Shown piece after piece: positions 2,812 through 13,408 of a stretch of 32,332 nucleotides of DNA (within the stretch, counting starts at the first letter, position 1; each line of letters opens with the position of its first letter). A program made the position numbers and the translations under genes. Under the pieces are notes generated by a model that was given only the letters and a program-made list of their open reading frames with translations, was not told where the DNA came from and did not search any database. Location of the stretch: positions 1-32,332 of the forward strand of contig JAJDUK010000001.1 in assembly GCA_022826665.1 (NCBI GenBank), given 5' to 3'. Origin of the DNA: Alphaproteobacteria bacterium (GTDB lineage: Bacteria; Pseudomonadota; Alphaproteobacteria; UBA828).

Positions 2812-2959
2812 GCGCCCGGATTAGAACGGCGCCCGAAGGGCATACCTACTCATAAGTTTTTTTGCCAATCTCCCTCAAACGGGGGACGCACAAACGCGCC
2901 CGACTCGCCTAACCTTCTCGCAAAGTGGGAGGGAAACGCGGTCGGAGAGGAGGCACGTC
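2812..2959 (+). promoter_or_regulatory. Duplicated leader, copy A (upstream of autotransporter 1)
   Basis: About 148 bp closely similar to 6425-6570 upstream of the second autotransporter. Both begin GCGCCCGGATTAGAACGGCG and end at a GTG start. Shared elements are a GCCC-GAA-GGGC mini-hairpin, a T-rich stretch, a CCCTC-aaac-GGGGG hairpin (2872-2885) and the block CCCGACTCGCCTAACCT. Copy B has CCCTC-aaac-GAGGG, so the stem keeps five pairs with a U-A to U-G change. The leader probably carries the promoter and a 5' untranslated structure. Confidence 0.6.
2948..2953 (+). promoter_or_regulatory. Ribosome binding site pointing to a GTG start at 2960
   Basis: AGGAGG sits 6 nt before GTG at 2960, an ideal arrangement. 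The matching codon is also the start of the paralogue (GTG at 6571). By contrast, the GTG at 3088 that begins the long reading frame has no purine-rich sequence upstream. This site therefore decides that the natural start is 2960, which is out of frame with the body of the gene at present. Confidence 0.7.
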
Positions 2960-3016
2960 GTGCACCGCTATAGCAGCGTGTTTGTTCCTCTTGATTCTTT
3001 CGGCGCGGGCAAGAGC

Positions 3017-3041
3017 GGCCCGGCCCGGCCCGGCCCGGCCC
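3017..3041 (+). repeat. Pentanucleotide tract (GGCCC)5, candidate phase switch
   Basis: Five perfect tandem GGCCC units lie between the GTG at 2960 and the signal-peptide coding part of autotransporter 1. With five units the GTG start is out of frame with the long frame (128 nt apart). Loss of one unit gives 123 nt (41 codons), and gain of two units also restores the frame. The long frame itself has a TGA at 2992-2994, upstream of the tract. Confidence 0.75.
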
Positions 3042-3087
3042 GCGGAGTCCTTCCGGGGCTGCGCGCGGACACTGCTCCGGCGCGGCG

Positions 3088-6000
3088 GTGTGCGCGCTCG
3101 CACGCCGGGGCTTCTGCGCCGCAGCCGGAATTCTGCTGGCCTTCGCCGCGCTCTGCGCGGTGTCCATACAGGCGGAGGCGCAGAGCACGGTCCTTGTATC
3201 CAATACCGGGCGAGCAGATAACGGCTCCCGCGATCCCGGCTCTAATGACTATGCCCAGCCCTTCCGAACGGGGAGCAATACCGATGGGTACACGCTCGAC
3301 AGCATCGTGCTGGACTTCAACAGCGCGCCTTCCAGCAACAGATTGACCATCACGGTACGCGAGCACGACTCTGGCGACCCGAGCGGAACGGTGCTGTACA
3401 CGCTGACGAACCCCGCATCGTTTTCGAGCGGGCTGAACGAATTCTCCGCACCGTCGGATGCCTCCCTCGACGCAAACACCACCTATTGGGTGGTGGCGAG
3501 CTACTTCTTCAGCACCGGAGGCCCGACTTGGTGGAGAACGTTGCTGAGCACCGGCATCGACCCGGGCAACGCGGCCGGTTGGCGCATTAACCAGAGATAC
3601 AAGCAAGCTAACAGGGGCACCTCGTCTTGGTCGGCAGGAGGAGGAGCGCGCGCGTTCCAGATGCAGGTCAAGGGCAGGGCCAAAACATCCGTCACAGCGA
3701 TGCTCGGGTCGCCCGAGTTCTACGTCCAGGAGCACGCGGACTACTACGCGGACCTGACCTACAGGTTCGACCTCACGCTTACCGAGGCGGTGAGCACCCC
3801 GCACCACGAGATGCGCGATCACGCCTTCGAGGTGACGAACGGGCGGATGGTCAAGGCGAAGCGCATCGGCGGAGACAGCGCCCACTGGCGCATGACGGTG
3901 CTCCCCATCGAGGCTCGGGAGCCCGTCACCGTCCGGCTGCGGGGCAACCGGCCCTGCAGTGCGCGGGGCGCGCTGTGCACCGGGGGCGGGGGCCGGATCA
4001 CCAATTCGCCGGAGCTGACCCTGCACTACGAAACCCTCACGATGAACACCGCCATGCTGCCGAGCGTCTCGATCGAGAACACGACGGCGAGAGAGAACGA
4101 CGCGTATCTGGCCTTCGACGTGCGCCTGTCGAAGCCGGCGAAACAGACCATCGCGGTCGACTTCGAGACCGTGTCTGGCGGCACCGCCACCGAGGGCGCG
4201 GACTACTGGAGGTCACGCCACAGAATCCTCTTCCGGCCGGGGGAGAGCGAGAAGCCGGCCGCCGTCGAGCTGATTGCGGATACCGTGAGCGACGACGGCG
4301 AGACGGTGTTGGGCGAAATCAGCAACGCGCGGGTCATCGCGGCAGCGGGGCCCGAGTTCGGAGGCGTGACGATCACGGATGCGCAGGCGACGGGCACCAT
4401 CAACGCGGCCGCGACCACGATGACGGCGGTGCCGGACGTGGACATCCGAATCCTCGATACCACCGGGAACGAGGGCGACGGCGGGATGGACTTCCCGGTG
4501 CGGCTCTCGCGGAGGCTGTCCGACTACGTCTGCTACGACTTCGAGACCCTGACCACGGGCACGGCGGTCCTGGGGGACGACTACCTCGCACGCCCGAAGT
4601 CGACGCAGTGGATGTGGCCCAGGACCACCGAGCAGGAACAGTTCGTGTGGATTGTGGACGACAACGTCAACGACAACGGCGAGACGGTGAAGGTGAAGAT
4701 CAGCAACGCGCGGCTGTGCAACGACGCGTCGCGGACGATCACTATCGCCAGAGGGGAGGCGACGGGGACCATCTACAACTCCGATCCGCTGCCGCAGGAA
4801 TGGATTGCGCGCTTCGGGCGGACGGTGGCGGACCAGGTGATCGATGCGGTGGAGGGGCGGATGACGGCCTCCCCCGCTCCTGGGGTCGAGGTGAGCGTCG
4901 CCGGGGAGCGGATCGGCGGCGGCGCGGCGGCGGCGGACGAGGTGGATGCGCGCAAGGCGGAGTCGCGGCTCGCGGCGCTGTCGGCGTGGTTCCGGGGCGA
5001 GGAGGAGCGGGAGAGCGCGCACGGGTTCCAGTCGCGCGCGGTGACGGGCCGGGAGATCCTGACCGGCACGTCGTTCGCGTTCACCGAGGGCTCGGCGGAG
5101 CGCGGATTCGGCGCCCTGTGGGGCCGAGGCGCGGTCTCCAGCTTCGACGGGCGCGAGGGCGCGCTCACGCTCGACGGCGAGGTCGAGAGCGCGATGCTGG
5201 GCGCCGACTGGTCCCTGGGCCGGTGGATGGCGGGCCTTGCGCTCGCGCATTCCCGCGGCGAGGGCGGCTACCGCTCGGCGCAGGGCGGTGGCGAGGTCTC
5301 GTCCACGCTCACCGGCGTCTATCCCTACGGGCGCTACGACGTGAGCGACGTGCTCTCGCTCTGGGGCGTGGTGGGTCTGGGCCGGGGCTCGCTCACGCTG
5401 ACGCAGGAGGGGGCGGACCCGATCGAGACGGACATGGACCTCACCATGGCGGCGCTCGGCGGTCGCGGGGTTCTGGTGGCGGCGCCGGCCGACGGCGGCC
5501 TGGAGCTCGCGGCGACCTCGGATGCCGTGCTGGTTCGGACCTCGTCGGACGAGGTGCGCGGCAGCACGGGCAACCTTTCTGCTGCGGAGGCTGACGTGAC
5601 GCGGCTGCGGCTGGGCCTTGAGGGCACCTGGTACGGGCTCGGGTCGATCGTGCCCTCCTTCGACATCGGCGTGCGCCAGGACAAGGGCGATGCGGAGACA
5701 GGCTTCGGGGCGGACATCGGCGCGGGCCTCGCCTGGAGCGACCCGGCGAGCGGCATCGAGGCAGCGGTGAACGTCAGGGGCCTGCTGACTCATGACGACG
5801 GCGACTTCAAGGAACGGGGCTTCGCGGGCTCGCTCGCCTGGGATTCGGACCCGGAGTCCGATCTGGGTCCGTCGCTGACGATCAGCCAGACGGTGGGCGG
5901 AGCAGCGACGGGCGGGCTTGAATCGCTGCTCCGGCCGAACAGCGCTGAAGCGCTGCTTGGCGCCGACGACGAGGGCGACGATCTGCGCAGCCGCCGCCTG

Positions 6001-6357
6001 GAGGCGCGGCTCGGCTACGGCTGGCCGTCGTTCGGCGGGCGCTACACGACGACGCCAGCGCTCGGCTTCGGGCTCACGGAGGCGGAGCGTGAAGTGAGCC
6101 ACAGCTGGCGGCTGGCCGAGACGCGGCGCACGGGCCTCGTCTTCGGCCTCGACCTGGAGGCGTCCCGCCGCGAGAGCGTGCGCGGAGACGTCGGGCCTGC
6201 GCACCGGGTCCTGTTCGGCCTCGGCTGGCAGCTGGAAGGCCTGCGCAGAGACGGTGCGTCCTTCGGGCTCCGTCTGGAGACCGCGCGCGGCGACACCGCC
6301 AACGACAACGTCCGGCCCGAGACCGTGATCGGCATCCGGCTGACGACGACGTGGTAG
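3088..6357 (+). CDS. Autotransporter 1: choice-of-anchor R-like, Calx-beta and beta-barrel protein
   Basis: The long frame encodes 1089 residues. The order is a signal peptide (hydrophobic AAAGILLAFAALCAV, cleavage after AEA), then an N-terminal domain with the NTGR...GYTLDSIVLDF...NTTYWVV pattern of the choice-of-anchor R type. Two Calx-beta-like repeats follow (SGGTATEGADY, DDGETV; then TTGTAVLGDDY, DNGETV). A conserved linker contains PQEWIARFGRTVADQ, and the last ~430 residues alternate as an autotransporter barrel ending LTTTW. The protein should be exported by Sec and anchored in the outer membrane with the passenger at the surface. The coordinates use GTG 3088, the only start in this frame after the TGA at 2992. 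The better start by ribosome site and paralogy is GTG 2960, separated by a frame change at (GGCCC)5. If in frame, the product would be about 1130 residues. A sequencing error in the GC-rich tract is the main alternative. Confidence 0.85.
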   Translation: MCALARRGFCAAAGILLAFAALCAVSIQAEAQSTVLVSNTGRADNGSRDPGSNDYAQPFRTGSNTDGYTLDSIVLDFNSAPSSNRLTITVREHDSGDPSGTVLYTLTNPASFSSGLNEFSAPSDASLDANTTYWVVASYFFSTGGPTWWRTLLSTGIDPGNAAGWRINQRYKQANRGTSSWSAGGGARAFQMQVKGRAKTSVTAMLGSPEFYVQEHADYYADLTYRFDLTLTEAVSTPHHEMRDHAFEVTNGRMVKAKRIGGDSAHWRMTVLPIEAREPVTVRLRGNRPCSARGALCTGGGGRITNSPELTLHYETLTMNTAMLPSVSIENTTARENDAYLAFDVRLSKPAKQTIAVDFETVSGGTATEGADYWRSRHRILFRPGESEKPAAVELIADTVSDDGETVLGEISNARVIAAAGPEFGGVTITDAQATGTINAAATTMTAVPDVDIRILDTTGNEGDGGMDFPVRLSRRLSDYVCYDFETLTTGTAVLGDDYLARPKSTQWMWPRTTEQEQFVWIVDDNVNDNGETVKVKISNARLCNDASRTITIARGEATGTIYNSDPLPQEWIARFGRTVADQVIDAVEGRMTASPAPGVEVSVAGERIGGGAAAADEVDARKAESRLAALSAWFRGEEERESAHGFQSRAVTGREILTGTSFAFTEGSAERGFGALWGRGAVSSFDGREGALTLDGEVESAMLGADWSLGRWMAGLALAHSRGEGGYRSAQGGGEVSSTLTGVYPYGRYDVSDVLSLWGVVGLGRGSLTLTQEGADPIETDMDLTMAALGGRGVLVAAPADGGLELAATSDAVLVRTSSDEVRGSTGNLSAAEADVTRLRLGLEGTWYGLGSIVPSFDIGVRQDKGDAETGFGADIGAGLAWSDPASGIEAAVNVRGLLTHDDGDFKERGFAGSLAWDSDPESDLGPSLTISQTVGGAATGGLESLLRPNSAEALLGADDEGDDLRSRRLEARLGYGWPSFGGRYTTTPALGFGLTEAEREVSHSWRLAETRRTGLVFGLDLEASRRESVRGDVGPAHRVLFGLGWQLEGLRRDGASFGLRLETARGDTANDNVRPETVIGIRLTTTW
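4768..4860 (+). repeat. Conserved linker-to-barrel segment, copy 1
   Basis: This 93-bp, 31-codon stretch matches 8221-8313 in the paralogue at 88 of 93 bases, with the last 45 bases identical. It encodes the linker containing PQEWIARFGRTVADQ between the last Calx-beta repeat and the barrel. It is far more alike than the passenger regions upstream, which suggests recent duplication or gene conversion. Confidence 0.75.
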
Positions 6358-6570: not shown

Positions 6571-9294
6571 GTGCACCGTTACAGTCGCAGCGAGTCTGTT
6601 CCCTTCGATTCATTCGGCGCGGGCGAGGACGGTGCAGGGCACGACACGGCGGCCGCCGCGGCGGTAAACGGGCAGCCAGCGCCGGCGCCCCGCGGCGACC
6701 GGTATGGCGTACTGCGCCTCGCTGCCGCGTTGGTGCTCGCGTGCGTGGCGCTCCTGGCGATACCCATGGCGGCCCACAGCGGGCCCAACGACGCGACGCT
6801 GCATCATTTCGAGCTCAGGGATAGTTCCAACAAAGTTCTCCCGCCCGTCAGGCCGTTCGACCCGACCGTGGCCAGACACTATGTGTACTACACCACATTC
6901 GACAGCATCGTGAATCTGACAGCGCTCCCCACGAACGGCGACGCCACCATCAGGTTCACCAGGCGACCCATTGTTCTCCAGCCGGCACTGCAGGGGGTGA
7001 AGGGCACGTACTACGTGCCGTACGGCGAGAACCGCTGGACCGTGGTGGTGACGTCCGCGAACGGCCGGTCCACCCGGCAGTACTCGATGTATACTCGGCG
7101 ATTTGGGCCCGAACACGATCCATTCCGAACGGGCGACGCCCGTTCCCGGGACGCCTCTCTGGCATCGTTCACGGTCGGAAAACCTGGAGACCAAAGCAAG
7201 ACCCAGGCCGTACCCCTCAGAACGAACCTGTCCGTGGAGGACCTCCAGCCGGCGAGGAACCGCACCTACACCGTCACGGTGCCGCACGACCGGGAGACGG
7301 CGTGGGTGCGTGCGACGCCGACCGCCGACGATGCCACGGTGGCCTACAGGCGCGGCGGATCTCCGCTGGATAGAGAAAACTTCGATCTCGACTATGGAGA
7401 GAACCGTATTCGGATCACGGTGACGCCCGACAACCGGCGCTGGGCGCGCGTTCACCGCCTCAAGATCATCCGCGAGCACCCGCCCGAGTATTCGAATGCG
7501 CTGACCGCGACCCTCACCGACCTCGGGATCGAGACCGAAGCGCAACAGGGACTGCTCGCCCGCACCTTCGAGCTCGCACTGAGCGAGCCCGTCCGGATGC
7601 CGGTCTCGGAGCTGAAGAACCATGCGCTGAGCGTGAACGGCGGAACGTTGGGCAAGGTGACACGCGTCGGCGGCACGTCGCGGCTCGTCAACGGCAATTG
7701 GGTGGATTACACCGACCGCTGGCGGATCCGGATCGTTGTTAAGCAGGGTGGGACCCTGACCGTCGCTGGGAACCGGGCCTGCCAGCTCGACGGGGCGCTG
7801 TGCACCGACGACGGGCGGCAGCTTGAGGGCACGCTCTCGGAGACGTTCGCCGGGGCGGTCGTGCTCAAGGCGTCCATCGAGGGTCCGGCCGAGGGCGGCG
7901 ACGAGGACGACGGCAGGATCGACTTCGAAGTCTCGCTCTCGCGCGAGCCGCAGAAGCTGGTGCAGGTGCGGTTCCGGACCATCGACAGCGGCGCGAACGC
8001 CGGCACCGCCACCCCGAACGTGGACTATCTGCCGGCGGACTACACGCTGGAGTTCGGGCCCGGCGAGACCACCAAGACGGCCCCGGTCGCGCTCTACGAC
8101 GACACCATCGACGACACCGGCGAGACCGTGATGGTGGAGATCTCGGACGCCCGCATGATCCTCAACCGCAACGGGAGGAGCCGTGCGATCTCCATAGCGG
8201 CGCCGAGGCGGGTGAGCGGGACCATCTACAACTCTGATCCGATGCCGCAGGAATGGATCGCGCGGTTCGGGCGCACGGTGGCGGACCAGGTGATCGATGC
8301 GGTGGAGGGGCGGCTGCGCACGGCGCCCTCGGCCGGGGTGGAGATCGGCCTGGGCGGTCAACGCATAGGTGTTGCGTCGCCTGCGGCGGGATCGCGCTCC
8401 GGCGAGAATTCCTCTGGGGTTGAAAATCCCGGCTCCGGCGCGGCTTTGACTTCGCTGTCCGGCGGCGCGGCCGAGGCCGAAGAGGCGGCGCGGCTCGTGG
8501 CGATGGCGGAGTGGCTGAACGGGGAGACGCAGGAAGAGGACGCGTCGCACCCCGGGTCCTGGTCGATGACCCCGCGCGAGCTGTTGCTGGGCTCGTCCTT
8601 CTCGCTGGCGGCGGAGACGGACGGCGGCGGTTTTGCCGGGCTTTGGGGCCGGATGGCGCAGACGCGCTTCGCGGGCCGCGAGGGAACGCTCGGCCTGGAC
8701 GGCGACGTGACCACGGCGCTTCTCGGCGCGGACTACGCCTGGGACCGCTGGACGACGGGCCTGGTGCTCTCGCACAGCACCGGCGAGGGCGGCTACCGGG
8801 GCGGGAGTTCCGGCGAGATCGAGGCCGGTGTGACGGCGCTGACGCCCTGGGCGGGCTACGCGCTAACGGAGCATCTGTCGGTGTGGGGCGCGGCGGGCTA
8901 CGGCTCGGGCGAGCTGACGCTGACGCAGGCAGACGGGACGGCGCTGAAGACCGACCTCGGGATGACGCTGGCGGCGGCCGGCGCGCGCGGCACGCTGATC
9001 GGCGGCGGCGGTCCGCGGCTCGATGCGGTGGCGGATGGAGAGGTTGTCCATAATGACGATGTCACCTGGGCGCAGCTCGGGGACCAGCACCCTCTCGACA
9101 TAGGTTTCGAAGGCCAGGCGGTTGATCGGCCCGTCGAGCACGAAGGGCGCGATCATGCCTCTCAGCGTGAGCCCTGCGACGAAGGTCGAGGTCTTTCAGT
9201 GGCCGTGCGGCTGGCCCATGCGCAGGCGCTGCCCCTTGAGCGCGCGGCCCATGGGTACGGGCCATGTTGGTCGTGGCCCAGGTCTCGTCGATAA
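6571..9294 (+). CDS. Autotransporter 2: cadherin-like/Calx-beta protein with truncated barrel
   Basis: The open frame has 907 codons. A ~42-residue N-terminal extension (SVPFDSFGAGEDG) precedes the hydrophobic export signal LRLAAALVLACVALLAIPM. Two cadherin-like beta-sandwich repeats follow (roughly residues 65-305, each with FDP...Y.V and YGENR.TV motifs), then a lone Calx-beta domain (NAGTATPNVDYLPADY, DDTGETV) and the conserved linker with PQEWIARFGRTVADQ. Next comes the first half of an autotransporter barrel homologous to autotransporter 1 (GLWGRM...LGADYAWDRW). Homology to the paralogue ends near 9040. The last ~85 codons read antisense through an IS630-type remnant and are not barrel-like. 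About 260 C-terminal residues of barrel, including the terminal aromatic residue, are missing, so the product should not insert properly in the outer membrane. It is probably a pseudogene or a reservoir of passenger sequence. Confidence 0.75.
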   Translation: MHRYSRSESVPFDSFGAGEDGAGHDTAAAAAVNGQPAPAPRGDRYGVLRLAAALVLACVALLAIPMAAHSGPNDATLHHFELRDSSNKVLPPVRPFDPTVARHYVYYTTFDSIVNLTALPTNGDATIRFTRRPIVLQPALQGVKGTYYVPYGENRWTVVVTSANGRSTRQYSMYTRRFGPEHDPFRTGDARSRDASLASFTVGKPGDQSKTQAVPLRTNLSVEDLQPARNRTYTVTVPHDRETAWVRATPTADDATVAYRRGGSPLDRENFDLDYGENRIRITVTPDNRRWARVHRLKIIREHPPEYSNALTATLTDLGIETEAQQGLLARTFELALSEPVRMPVSELKNHALSVNGGTLGKVTRVGGTSRLVNGNWVDYTDRWRIRIVVKQGGTLTVAGNRACQLDGALCTDDGRQLEGTLSETFAGAVVLKASIEGPAEGGDEDDGRIDFEVSLSREPQKLVQVRFRTIDSGANAGTATPNVDYLPADYTLEFGPGETTKTAPVALYDDTIDDTGETVMVEISDARMILNRNGRSRAISIAAPRRVSGTIYNSDPMPQEWIARFGRTVADQVIDAVEGRLRTAPSAGVEIGLGGQRIGVASPAAGSRSGENSSGVENPGSGAALTSLSGGAAEAEEAARLVAMAEWLNGETQEEDASHPGSWSMTPRELLLGSSFSLAAETDGGGFAGLWGRMAQTRFAGREGTLGLDGDVTTALLGADYAWDRWTTGLVLSHSTGEGGYRGGSSGEIEAGVTALTPWAGYALTEHLSVWGAAGYGSGELTLTQADGTALKTDLGMTLAAAGARGTLIGGGGPRLDAVADGEVVHNDDVTWAQLGDQHPLDIGFEGQAVDRPVEHEGRDHASQREPCDEGRGLSVAVRLAHAQALPLERAAHGYGPCWSWPRSRR
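8221..8313 (+). repeat. Conserved linker-to-barrel segment, copy 2
   Basis: Partner of 4768-4860. There are five base differences in 93, and only one changes the protein (CTG Leu versus ATG Met). Confidence 0.75.
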
Positions 9295-9389
9295 AGACCA
9301 GGCGCGCCGGATCAAGCGCAGTGGCTTAAGCCCTCGGCCACCGCCGCCAGGACCCGAACCCGAGGATCAAGGGAAGGCGCTTTCGACAT
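9042..9389 (-). mobile_element. Decayed IS630-family transposase remnant
   Basis: Read on the minus strand, an ATG at 9389 opens with MSKAPSLDPRVRVLAAVAEG, the typical N-terminus of IS630-type transposases. After about 23 codons the sequence jumps to the DDE region (LDPARLVFIDETWATTNM), so roughly 110 residues including the helix-turn-helix are deleted. A frame change follows, and a TGA replaces the expected Trp codon in HGH-stop-KTSTF. The frame then continues with PFVLDGPINRLAFETYVE and DIVIMDNLS, which carries the second catalytic Asp. It ends near 9042 where autotransporter 2 homology begins, so the final catalytic Glu is absent. The element cannot encode active transposase. It explains how autotransporter 2 lost its barrel end. 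Confidence 0.8.
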
Positions 9390-9439: not shown

Positions 9440-9640
9440 TTGGAAATCCATTTCAATTCAGTTAGATAGGATTGCACTCTAGCGGAGCCATCCCGTACCG
9501 TGCGGAGGATTGCGCGAGATAACATGCCGCAAGGCTTCCCAAATCATAGCGAATATGAGTTAGCAGTATATCCATATAATATATGTTTATGCGGTATATT
9601 AATACAGTATTAGCTATACTAAAACATAATATTGAACACA
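9440..9640. promoter_or_regulatory. AT-rich island upstream of autotransporter 3, with nested dyad
   Basis: A sharp drop in GC compared with the flanks, densest from 9540 to 9640. It contains the 13-bp perfect inverted repeat TAATAC-A-GTATTA (9600-9612), framed by GTATA (9594-9598) and TATAC (9615-9619). The island probably contains the promoter of autotransporter 3 and a binding site for a regulator or a nucleoid protein. No gene is visible in 9416-9850 apart from a possible N-terminal extension of that gene. Confidence 0.45.
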
Positions 9641-9850
9641 TTGACTCGTCTCGGGCCGGTTCGGGAGACGGCGGCGAGGCGCAAATCGGGAAGAGCCCAT
9701 CGACAGGAACCCATGCGCCGGGGGCGTTCGGCGGGGAGTGGCTGGACGGTGGATGAGGCGGGCTCCATACTTTTCCGATGGTGGACTAATCCTGCGGGCT
9801 CCAACCACGCCGCCGGAACCGTCGCCAGGCGGTCGCAGGTAAGGCGAGAC

Positions 9851-12800
9851 GTGCCGCCTGGGTTCGCCCTTCGCGCGTTCGATACCTTCGGCACGGACCG
9901 GCCCGGAAAACGCAGGCGGGGTGGTCAGCGCCGGATTTGCCATGCCACCGCAGGCCTGCTGCCGGCCCTCGCCACACTCATTCTCGGCGCGGGAAACGCG
10001 GTGGCTCAGACCCCCGTGTGCAGCAATACTCCCGGCGCCGGCGAGAGAATCGAATGCACCGAGGACGCCAACTCCACCGACGACATCGATATTATTGTCG
10101 AAGGCGTCGACATCGATACCATGTTCGACGGGATGGGCTTCGATACCGAGGGACTCCACGGCATCCATGCCGAACATGCCGGAAACGGAAATATCGGCAT
10201 CATCGTCAGACACGAATTCGACGATCAGGACTTAACGCTCACTCTCAGCACCATCCACACGGATGGCCAGGAGGACCACGCCGTCTGGGGTCACCATACA
10301 GGCACCGGAGATATTAACATCGACAGTTACGGCACGGTGGGAACGGCGGGCCCGGCGACGTCGGGCACCGGATCTCATGGTCTCTACGCGCTCCATGAAG
10401 GCACCGGAGACACGGAGATCTTGTCTCGATCCTTTGAAATCGTCGTGACGGGCAATAGATCCATAGGCATCTACGCCCATCATCAAACAGGCTCCTCCGG
10501 TGACATCTATGTTTTCCACAAAGGAACGATCAAGTCGAAGGGTGAAAGAGGGGAGCACGGCATCCATGTATCTCATCGCGGCACGGGTCAGGCCGGGATC
10601 GATGTAGAAAGGTCCCGAATCGAGACGAACAGCACACGTGGCGCCCGCGGCGTCTATCTTTGGCATAGCGGCGCAGCCACTGGTGACAGCATCATCACGG
10701 CGTCAGACGGTACCAGGATCACCACGGAAGGCCGCAGTGCTCACGGCGTCTTCATCGACCACGGAGGCACCGATATAGACGGAGATTCAACCGATCTCGT
10801 TCTTGAGGTGTCTTCCGCCAACTCTTCCAACGTGATCCTCGTACCCACAGAAATTACTACTATGGGCGATAACGCCTACGGCGTCCGCGGCTACCGACGG
10901 AATGGCACGGGCGACGTCGAAATCGACGTCCTTGATACCGTCATCGAGACGAGCGGGAACACCGGCCGCGGGATCGACGCCTACCATACCGCCGACGGCA
11001 ACATCGAGGTCTACGTCGAAGACAGCAGCATCGAGACGGCGGGGTATCTGGCCGTTGGCATTCGTGCCCGGTTGCAGGATACCACTGCGGTGGGCGAGGG
11101 CTTCGATGGCATCGGCGACATCGAAGTCGATACCCGGAACCTCGACATCACGACGACAGGGACGGGCATCTATCGAGAAATCGGCACCCTGTCCCACGGC
11201 ATTGAATCCATCCATGAAGGCATCGGAGACAACAATGTCGATCTGACGGGCGGGTCCATTTCGACGGCGGGCTTATATTCCTACGGGATATATGGCGTTC
11301 ACCGCGGCGATGGCGACATCGCCATCACTACAGGGGGCGGGCACACCGTCACCACGACGGGCGACAATGCCCACGGCATCGTGGCCTATCATTACGGTGT
11401 CGCCGACGAGGATTACGCCGACACCTCCAACGTCATCGGCATCACCGTCGGCGGCAGCGTCGAGGCCACCGGGTCGGGTGCGCACGGCGTGTTGGTGGGC
11501 ACGGTCAATGCGGACGGAAATGCCGAGCGCGTCGCCGCCGTAGGTATGGACGGCTACCTTCTGCAGACCGTCACGGTGAACGACAGCGTGCGTGGCGGCT
11601 CCGGCGAGGGAGTGGGCATATTTCTCGCAGGCGGCGGCAAAATCTACATCGGGCCGCAGGGAACGGTGGGCGCCGATTCCGGCATCGCGATCCGCGCTTC
11701 AGGGGACACGCCGGCTGAAGATGAGGAAGACCCGTCCATCAAGCCCAGGCTCTACGTCGATATGAATCTCGACGGCCGCCGGGTAGCGGACGTCATTGGC
11801 GACGACTGGATCATCAACGACGGCGGCGAGACCACCATCGTCGTCAACGACGTGACGCTGCATGAAGGGGCCACGGGCGTTGTCCAGGACGGGAACGGCA
11901 ATCCAATCAAGGTTGCGAACGGTGCCTACGACATCGCGATAAGAAAAGACGGGCTTACCGTCGATACCGGCGCGGATCCGTGGACGTTTTCTCAAAGGTC
12001 CGAGAGCACCATCGCGGATCGGGACTTTTCCGCTGGTGATTTCATCGAGCCATCTCCTCCACCGCCACCGCCACCGCCTCCTCCCCCGCCTCCTCCTCCG
12101 CCACCACCACCGGAACCAGAGCCCGAGCCTGAGCCCGAGCCGGAACCAGAGCCTGAGCCCGAGCCGGAACCAGAGCCCGAGCCTGAGCCGGAACCAGAGC
12201 CCGAGCCGGAACCAGAGCCAGAGCCCGAGCCGGAACCAGAGCCAGAGCCAGAGCCCGAACCGGAGCCAGAGCCCGAGCCCGAACCGGAGCCAGAGCCCGA
12301 GCCCGAACCGGAGCCAGAGCCCGAGCCCGAACCGGAACCACAGCCCGAGCCCGAGCCAGAACTCGAGCCGGAGCCCGAGCCAGAACCCGAGCCTGAGCCT
12401 GAGCCCGAACCGGAACCCGAGCCTGAACCTGAGCCAGAGCCTGAACCGGAACCAGAGCCCGAACCGGAACCTGAGCCAGAGCCCGAGGAACCCATCTTCA
12501 TAGAGCAGTACGCCCCCCGGGCTGCGGTTTACGAGTCCCTGCCAGGTTTCTTGCTGCGTTTGAACGGCAGGGCCGATGTCGAAGGGGAGCGGGTGCGTTC
12601 TCCAGATTCGCCACTCTGGCTCCAGCTTAGAGACGGGACGGGTTCTTATGAGGTCGAGCGCTCCACCGTGGGTGCGGAATATGACTTTCGCCGCTTTGAG
12701 TTAGCGATCGGAATGGACTTCAAGCTGCATGAAGCCCTCACCGGCTCGATCGCGGTACGGCAGGTCTCGGGCTCGGCCGATGTATCCTCACCGGTCGGCG

Positions 12801-13408
12801 GTGGCACGATCGACGCCACGGGCAAAGGACTGTCGGCAGGTCTTTCCTGGGAGGGGCCAGACGGTCTCTACGGCAATGGCCGTCTCTCGGCGACCTGGTA
12901 TGACGTGGACGTCGCGTCCGACAGTCGCGGCAATCTCAAGGCGGGCATCGACGCTTCCATTCATACCCTCGATGTCGAGGCCGGCCGACGCTTCGCATTG
13001 AGCGAGAAGACGGGTCTGACGATCCGCACTTGGTTGCATCGCTCGGAGGCATCCGTAACTCGCTTCACGGACGTCCTGGGTTCCCGGGTCTCGGTAATCG
13101 ACGCGGAGCATCTGAAGGGTGCAATCGGCGGGATCGTCGAGACCGACCTGGCGTGGAGCCCCTTGGGAAAGGGCCTCTCGCTGCACGGCTTGCTGGATGT
13201 GGAGCAGACGCTTAGCGGCGGCGAGACGGCAGTCCTTGTGTCGGGAGAGGAGCTGAGATCGAAGTCTCCGGACACCAGGGCACTGCTAGGCGTGGGTGGA
13301 ACTTATCGTTGGGACCGCGCCACGCTGCAGGGCGGCCTCCAGATGCACGGTGTGGGTTCGGGGGATGTCGAGTATTCCGGTAGCCTCGTTCTCCGGATGG
13401 CGTTCTGA
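9851..13408 (+). CDS. Autotransporter 3 with His-rich repeated passenger and (Glu-Pro) linker
   Basis: 1185 residues from GTG 9851, which has AAGG 6 nt upstream. The frame stays open to a TTG at 9632 and an ATG at 9713, so the start is uncertain. The signal peptide is [20 protein letters not shown] with the hydrophobic core continuing to a cleavage site after AVA. The passenger, up to about nt 11,560, has around 14 beta-helix-like repeats of the form [H/Y]-G-[I/V]-x-[A/V]-x-H-x-G-x-G-D-[I/V], for example [15 protein letters not shown] and [15 protein letters not shown]. Next come 19 prolines, 62 Glu-Pro dipeptides (one Gln, one Leu variant), and a ~300-residue autotransporter barrel ending VLRMAF with the terminal Phe expected for BAM recognition. 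It is a surface protein, probably an adhesin. The barrel is unlike that of autotransporters 1 and 2, so it is a separate lineage. Confidence 0.85.
12056..12484 (+). repeat. Poly-Pro (19) followed by (Glu-Pro)62 coding repeat
   Basis: Codons 12056-12112 encode 19 consecutive Pro; 12113-12484 encode 62 Glu-Pro dipeptides, with one Gln and one Leu replacing Glu. Synonymous codons alternate in blocks (GAGCCC, GAACCA, GAGCCG), typical of expansion by 6-bp multiples that keep the frame. The product is an extended, strongly acidic stalk between passenger and barrel. Confidence 0.9.

Follow-up and report, generated by a model that had tools for sequence, protein, structure and literature searches.

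Can five tandem GGCCC units, lying between a well-marked start and the signal peptide of an autotransporter gene, act as a phase switch that is OFF in the assembled copy? The gene lies in the window analysed here, a stretch of 32,332 bp that forms an entire contig (C36) of a 4.6-Mb draft genome (G000; 106 contigs, estimated contamination 4%). One housekeeping-type protein encoded in the window shows 92–96% identity to its counterparts in the MAGs RHO3_bin_58 (Rhodospirillales bacterium), CO36404bin_6 (Alphaproteobacteria bacterium), and jk18x27bins.25, which correspond by their matching hits to the congeners G007, G006, and G004 and whose isolate names suggest an origin in sponge metagenomes. 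The gene under study is the first in a row of three autotransporter genes. Its ORF runs from GTG 3088 to 6357 and encodes a choice-of-anchor R domain, Calx-beta domains, and a PF03797 barrel. The signal peptide (recognized by eye), the Calx-beta passenger, and the C-terminal PF03797 domain lie in one chain, as in type Va (classical) autotransporters. The features of the locus are the following:

2823–2959, forward strand: upstream and 5′ region common to the first gene and its paralogue (alignment, ~80% identity), presumably the promoter with the 5′ UTR
2948–2953, forward strand: Shine-Dalgarno (SD) sequence AGGAGG, with a 6-nt spacer to GTG 2960, read from the sequence
2960–3015, forward strand: putative GTG start and leader VHRYSSVFVPLDSFGAGKS..., homologous to the leader at GTG 6571
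3016–3042, forward strand: slippage-type tract (GGCCC)5, a 27-bp perfect period-5 run, (CGGCC)5.4 with 100% match
3043–3087, forward strand: post-tract leader, in the autotransporter frame only at a unit number of 1 modulo 3 (e.g., 4 or 7), by frame arithmetic
3088–3183, forward strand: signal peptide VCALARRGFCAAAGILLAFAALCAVSIQAEAQ, recognized by eye; a possible alternative start, GTG 3088, has no SD
3199–3675, forward strand: choice-of-anchor R domain (NCBIfam NF041539, E 8.9e-26)
4063–4383, forward strand: Calx-beta domain (PF03160), the better of two stretches
5119–5712, forward strand: autotransporter beta-domain (PF03797, above cut-off in a six-frame genome scan); the ORF closes at 6357
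6571–9294, forward strand: paralogue with the same leader, no tract, and an in-frame start; a DDE transposase remnant cuts its barrel short

The sequence-only reading had placed five GGCCC units between the start and the signal-peptide frame, and five complete units are indeed found at 3017–3041, within the perfect tract. Recomputing the distance from GTG 2960, which has AGGAGG 6 nt before it, to the signal-peptide frame at GTG 3088 again gave 128 nt; because 128 modulo 3 is 2, the two are out of frame with five units. As assembled, the frame read from GTG 2960 stays open for 128 codons and then meets a stop. A stop at 2992 interrupts the autotransporter frame, in which GTG 3088, lacking an SD, is the only candidate start ahead of the passenger. 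Changes of −1, +2, −4, or +5 units restore the frame and no change leaves it out, in agreement with the earlier statement that one unit lost or two gained would join GTG 2960 to the signal peptide.

The tract is not a product of chance. In 1.68 Mb of other sequence from the same genome, sampled according to contig position, irrespective of content, there were no tandem repeats with a unit of 4–12 nt, at least three copies, and a length of at least 20 bp. In a 1.41-Mb part of this control, period-5 runs reached at most 17 bp, against 27 bp in the window, and their counts dropped by ~3.5-fold per base, from which a 27-bp run is expected, by extrapolation, ~1e-5 times per genome. A single (GGCCC)5 is present in this genome, and the rest of a 289-genome sample of the class contains no other. 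Homopolymers of at least 11 nt were also present in the controls (one in a LysR/LuxR region, one in a phage-like gene immediately after an ATG, and one in a contig-end artefact) and are irrelevant to the finding. In the second of these, C11 at 4471–4481 of L292 (G000:C24) directly follows ATGACAGTA in a phage-like gene cluster, and that ATG is out of frame with the next ORF, through either slippage or sequencing error. At the end of contig C29, C14G13 and other homopolymers (8762–8830 of L297) look like an assembly artefact.

The paralogue offers an internal comparison. It had been proposed that its GTG 6571 is the same start, and in the alignment this GTG is homologous, in frame, and followed by no tract. 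It had also been argued that the first ~20 codons are coding, since they are conserved between the copies with third-position changes. The conservation was seen, and the third-position argument turned out to be weak, because only 4–5 of the 11 leader substitutions (the range depends on gap placement) fall at third positions; in the leaders, substitutions are flat by codon position, with no third-position bias significant by eye, and this counts against a switch. Nor is the conservation specific to coding sequence, as it extends ~135 bp upstream of the start. A better sign is the pattern of indels, the sole one in the leader being of 3 nt and those upstream of 2 and 4 nt, which mildly favors a coding leader. 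The barrel of the paralogue is interrupted by the remnant of a DDE_3-type transposase (PF13358, E 4e-6, slightly below the cut-off; 8866–9325, reverse strand), and this copy is thus probably dead, although its leader is in frame. Outside these two tandem copies, the leader and upstream DNA were found nowhere in the eight genomes of the genus. Protein searches of genome contigs and viral contigs revealed no relative of the window autotransporter, and the nearest match in a congener is only ~52% identical over the barrel.

Searches by protein homology, and not by repeat, led to three further large surface-protein genes in the same genome, each with a long non-triplet repeat that separates an SD-bearing start from the signal peptide:

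G000:C49: (GAGCC)16, in frame, fn3 domains
G000:C10: (GAGAGCC)11, out of frame, complete barrel at the C-terminus
G000:C73: (GGTCGCCG)11.8, in frame, complete barrel at the C-terminus

Together with the window copy, which like C10 is out of frame, these genes show an enrichment of non-triplet repeats between the start and the signal peptide of large surface-protein genes, and bring the number of such leaders in this genome to at least four. The leaders of C49 and C10 are 90% identical before the tract and have a different repeat unit at the same site. After the tract, their alignment contains 42 substitutions and no indels over 300 bp, whereas four 1-nt indels occur in the 250 bp before the start, which indicates a constraint on the frame immediately after the tract. 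An SD with an ATG or GTG and an open frame no more than 200 nt upstream was found for all four tracts (three independent leaders) versus 6% of random positions, giving a joint chance of ~2e-4 for the three independent leaders. Two observations count against a switch: the five units of the window tract are few compared with the 11–16 of the sister loci, and in-frame starts lacking an SD are present downstream of all four tracts. In C73, a near-perfect palindrome, ATCCGgACTTGaCAAGTgCGGAT (3632–3654 of L090), lies just before the octanucleotide array and is a possible operator.

The GAGCC unit also occurs outside this genome, where its arrays are rare. Within the genus, only this genome and the congener G005, out of eight, contain (GAGCC)4. 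In G005, two contigs, C79 (at its end, L188) and C142 (at its start, L189), are broken inside (GAGCC)n. An ORF for an Eco57I/N6-type methylase runs into the array at the end of C79, suggesting a phase-variable DNA methyltransferase whose two halves, on C79 and C142, would form one gene. In the class sample of 289 genomes, (GAGCC)5 was found in only one other genome, G208, which belongs to another family. There, the arrays lie at the broken ends of contigs C3 and C166 (L334 and L344), an open frame continues into a signal-peptide-like N-terminus, and the sequence before the array has ATCCGGACTTGACAA in common with the C73 leader. No Pfam family was assigned to the short ORF after the G208 array. 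The autotransporters sampled from seven congeners had almost no comparable tracts, a further point against a switch, although these are fragmented assemblies prone to break at such repeats.

We consider that the window tract is probably a simple-sequence contingency locus acting at the level of translation, in which slippage would set the frame and the assembled copy would be OFF. The perfect non-triplet tandem repeat, at the 5′ end of the coding sequence, is beyond chance, gains or losses of units bring the ORF that follows into or out of register with a credible SD-bearing start, and the gene classes concerned are those of surface structures (a Calx-beta autotransporter here, fn3/Calx-beta proteins at the sister loci) and, in the congener, an Eco57I-type methylase. 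Translation would begin at GTG 2960 and continue across the GGCCC units into the signal-peptide and autotransporter sequence, while slipped-strand mispairing would vary the unit number and, with it, the frame. With the five units assembled, the predicted product is an out-of-frame short peptide of ~128 residues (OFF); with four or seven units, the full Calx-beta autotransporter would be made behind a leader of 41 or 46 residues (ON) and would be displayed by the ON cells. Because none of the three frames is closed within the repeats (GPARP, SRAEP, etc.), every state would cross the tract, and the outcome would be decided after it. The phase switch proposed from the sequence alone has thus gained support from three sister genes with 5-, 7-, and 8-nt repeats in both frame states, and from the lack of such repeats in the 1.68-Mb control, with switching itself inferred. 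Since the sister loci recur and the control is free of such repeats, translational phase variation of a set of surface proteins is the best reading.

Among the other explanations, the one that would leave the repeats a role of another kind places the starts downstream of them (GTG 3088 in the window, ATG 680 in C49, GTG 1356 in C10, and ATG 3790 in C73), so that the repeats, in the 5′ UTR or promoter, would tune expression by their length and not by the frame, as the hmw1A and hmw2A heptamers of Haemophilus do. In-frame starts do follow every tract, TATAAT immediately precedes the GAGCC tract in both C49 and G208, and TTGACA is found in C73 and G208; these motifs, however, are off the usual 16–18 nt spacing. 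The downstream starts all lack an SD, whereas the upstream ones have it, the paralogue has no start that matches GTG 3088, the post-tract leaders of C49 and C10 are free of indels, and RNA from the 5′ region of the window copy folds no better than shuffled sequences (z 0.25). We regard this explanation as unlikely, though still alive for C49 and G208, as TATAAT adjoins their GAGCC tracts.

A little less likely again is that the true tract has four units, or that another indel closes the frame, and that the gene is simply ON, the fifth unit having arisen in a GC-only repeat through faulty sequencing or assembly. The draft state of the genome, with its 106 contigs and 4% estimated contamination, and the pure G+C composition of the tract would favor such an error, and with one unit fewer the leader length resembles that of the paralogue. 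On the other hand, a 27-bp tract fits easily inside a short read, the sister loci are real tracts of this genome in both frame states, and a tract of four units would still be a candidate for slippage; an error of this kind is possible for the window copy alone. It is very improbable that the gene in the window is in decay and its frameshift fixed, comparable to the paralogue broken by the transposase remnant. The paralogue is truncated and the assembled state is out of frame, as decay would have it, but the passenger frame is open across 1089 codons without a stop, which makes an old null unlikely, the domains and barrel are intact, and the sole lesion coincides with the slippage-type tract.

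Beyond the window, translational switching may extend to a whole repertoire, and here we lean, by a modest degree, towards the following: large Calx-beta/fn3 surface proteins of a sponge-associated genus would be phase variable through slippery leaders between the start codon and the signal peptide, in which the unit at a homologous site could be exchanged (GAGCC in one paralogue, GAGAGCC in the other) with the switch kept, and GAGCC would also serve in a congener's DNA methyltransferase gene and, in another family, ahead of a product that looks secreted.

One of the closest parallels is opa of Neisseria, in which a CTCTT pentanucleotide in the signal-peptide coding region sets the frame by the unit number modulo 3. 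As in opa, a pentanucleotide coding repeat is located near the 5′ end of a gene for an outer-membrane protein and the unit number modulo 3 determines the frame. Unlike in opa, the tract lies before and not inside the signal peptide, its unit is pure G+C, the product is an autotransporter instead of an 8-strand Opa barrel, the host is an alphaproteobacterial sponge associate, and switching is inferred from sequence. In Pfam and NCBIfam, only Calx-beta, choice-of-anchor R, and autotransporter domains were matched, with no homology to Opa/OmpA-like 8-strand barrels; the window locus would work like opa, yet it is no member of Neisseria Opa.

In Haemophilus influenzae, 7- and 8-mers are also in use among the non-tetranucleotide SSR loci, and (GACGA)4 of hsdM is reported to switch at a high rate, comparable to the rates of far longer tetranucleotide tracts (PMC2651432). 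In hsdM, as in the window, a short pentanucleotide tract lies within an ORF, and switching was measured there at four units; five units or more is the cut-off for pentanucleotides in a survey of the Neisseria phasome (PMC5953494). The SSR loci of H. influenzae differ from the window locus in belonging to restriction-modification and LPS genes, to which the methylase of G005, with its GAGCC array, is a nearer analogue. The heptanucleotide repeats of hmw1A and hmw2A sit in the promoter and act on transcription (PMC2651432). They resemble the heptamer of C10 in their association with a large surface protein, there a secreted adhesin, and differ in the level of action, since here the frame arithmetic and the upstream SD-bearing start favor translation.

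SSR phase variation has been studied mainly in mammalian pathogens and commensals, and a limited search of the open-access literature found no report of it in sponge symbionts. The mechanism is already known, while the lineage and the repertoire are new. The set of candidates described here, in an alphaproteobacterium associated with sponges, suggests that bacteria living with invertebrates hedge their surface too, perhaps against phage or host phagocytes.

The third autotransporter gene of the row (9632–13408) has a leader of ~100 residues ahead of its signal peptide and a Pro/Glu (PEPEPE) stalk of ~125 residues, which is encoded by in-frame hexamer-type repeats at 12059–12487.
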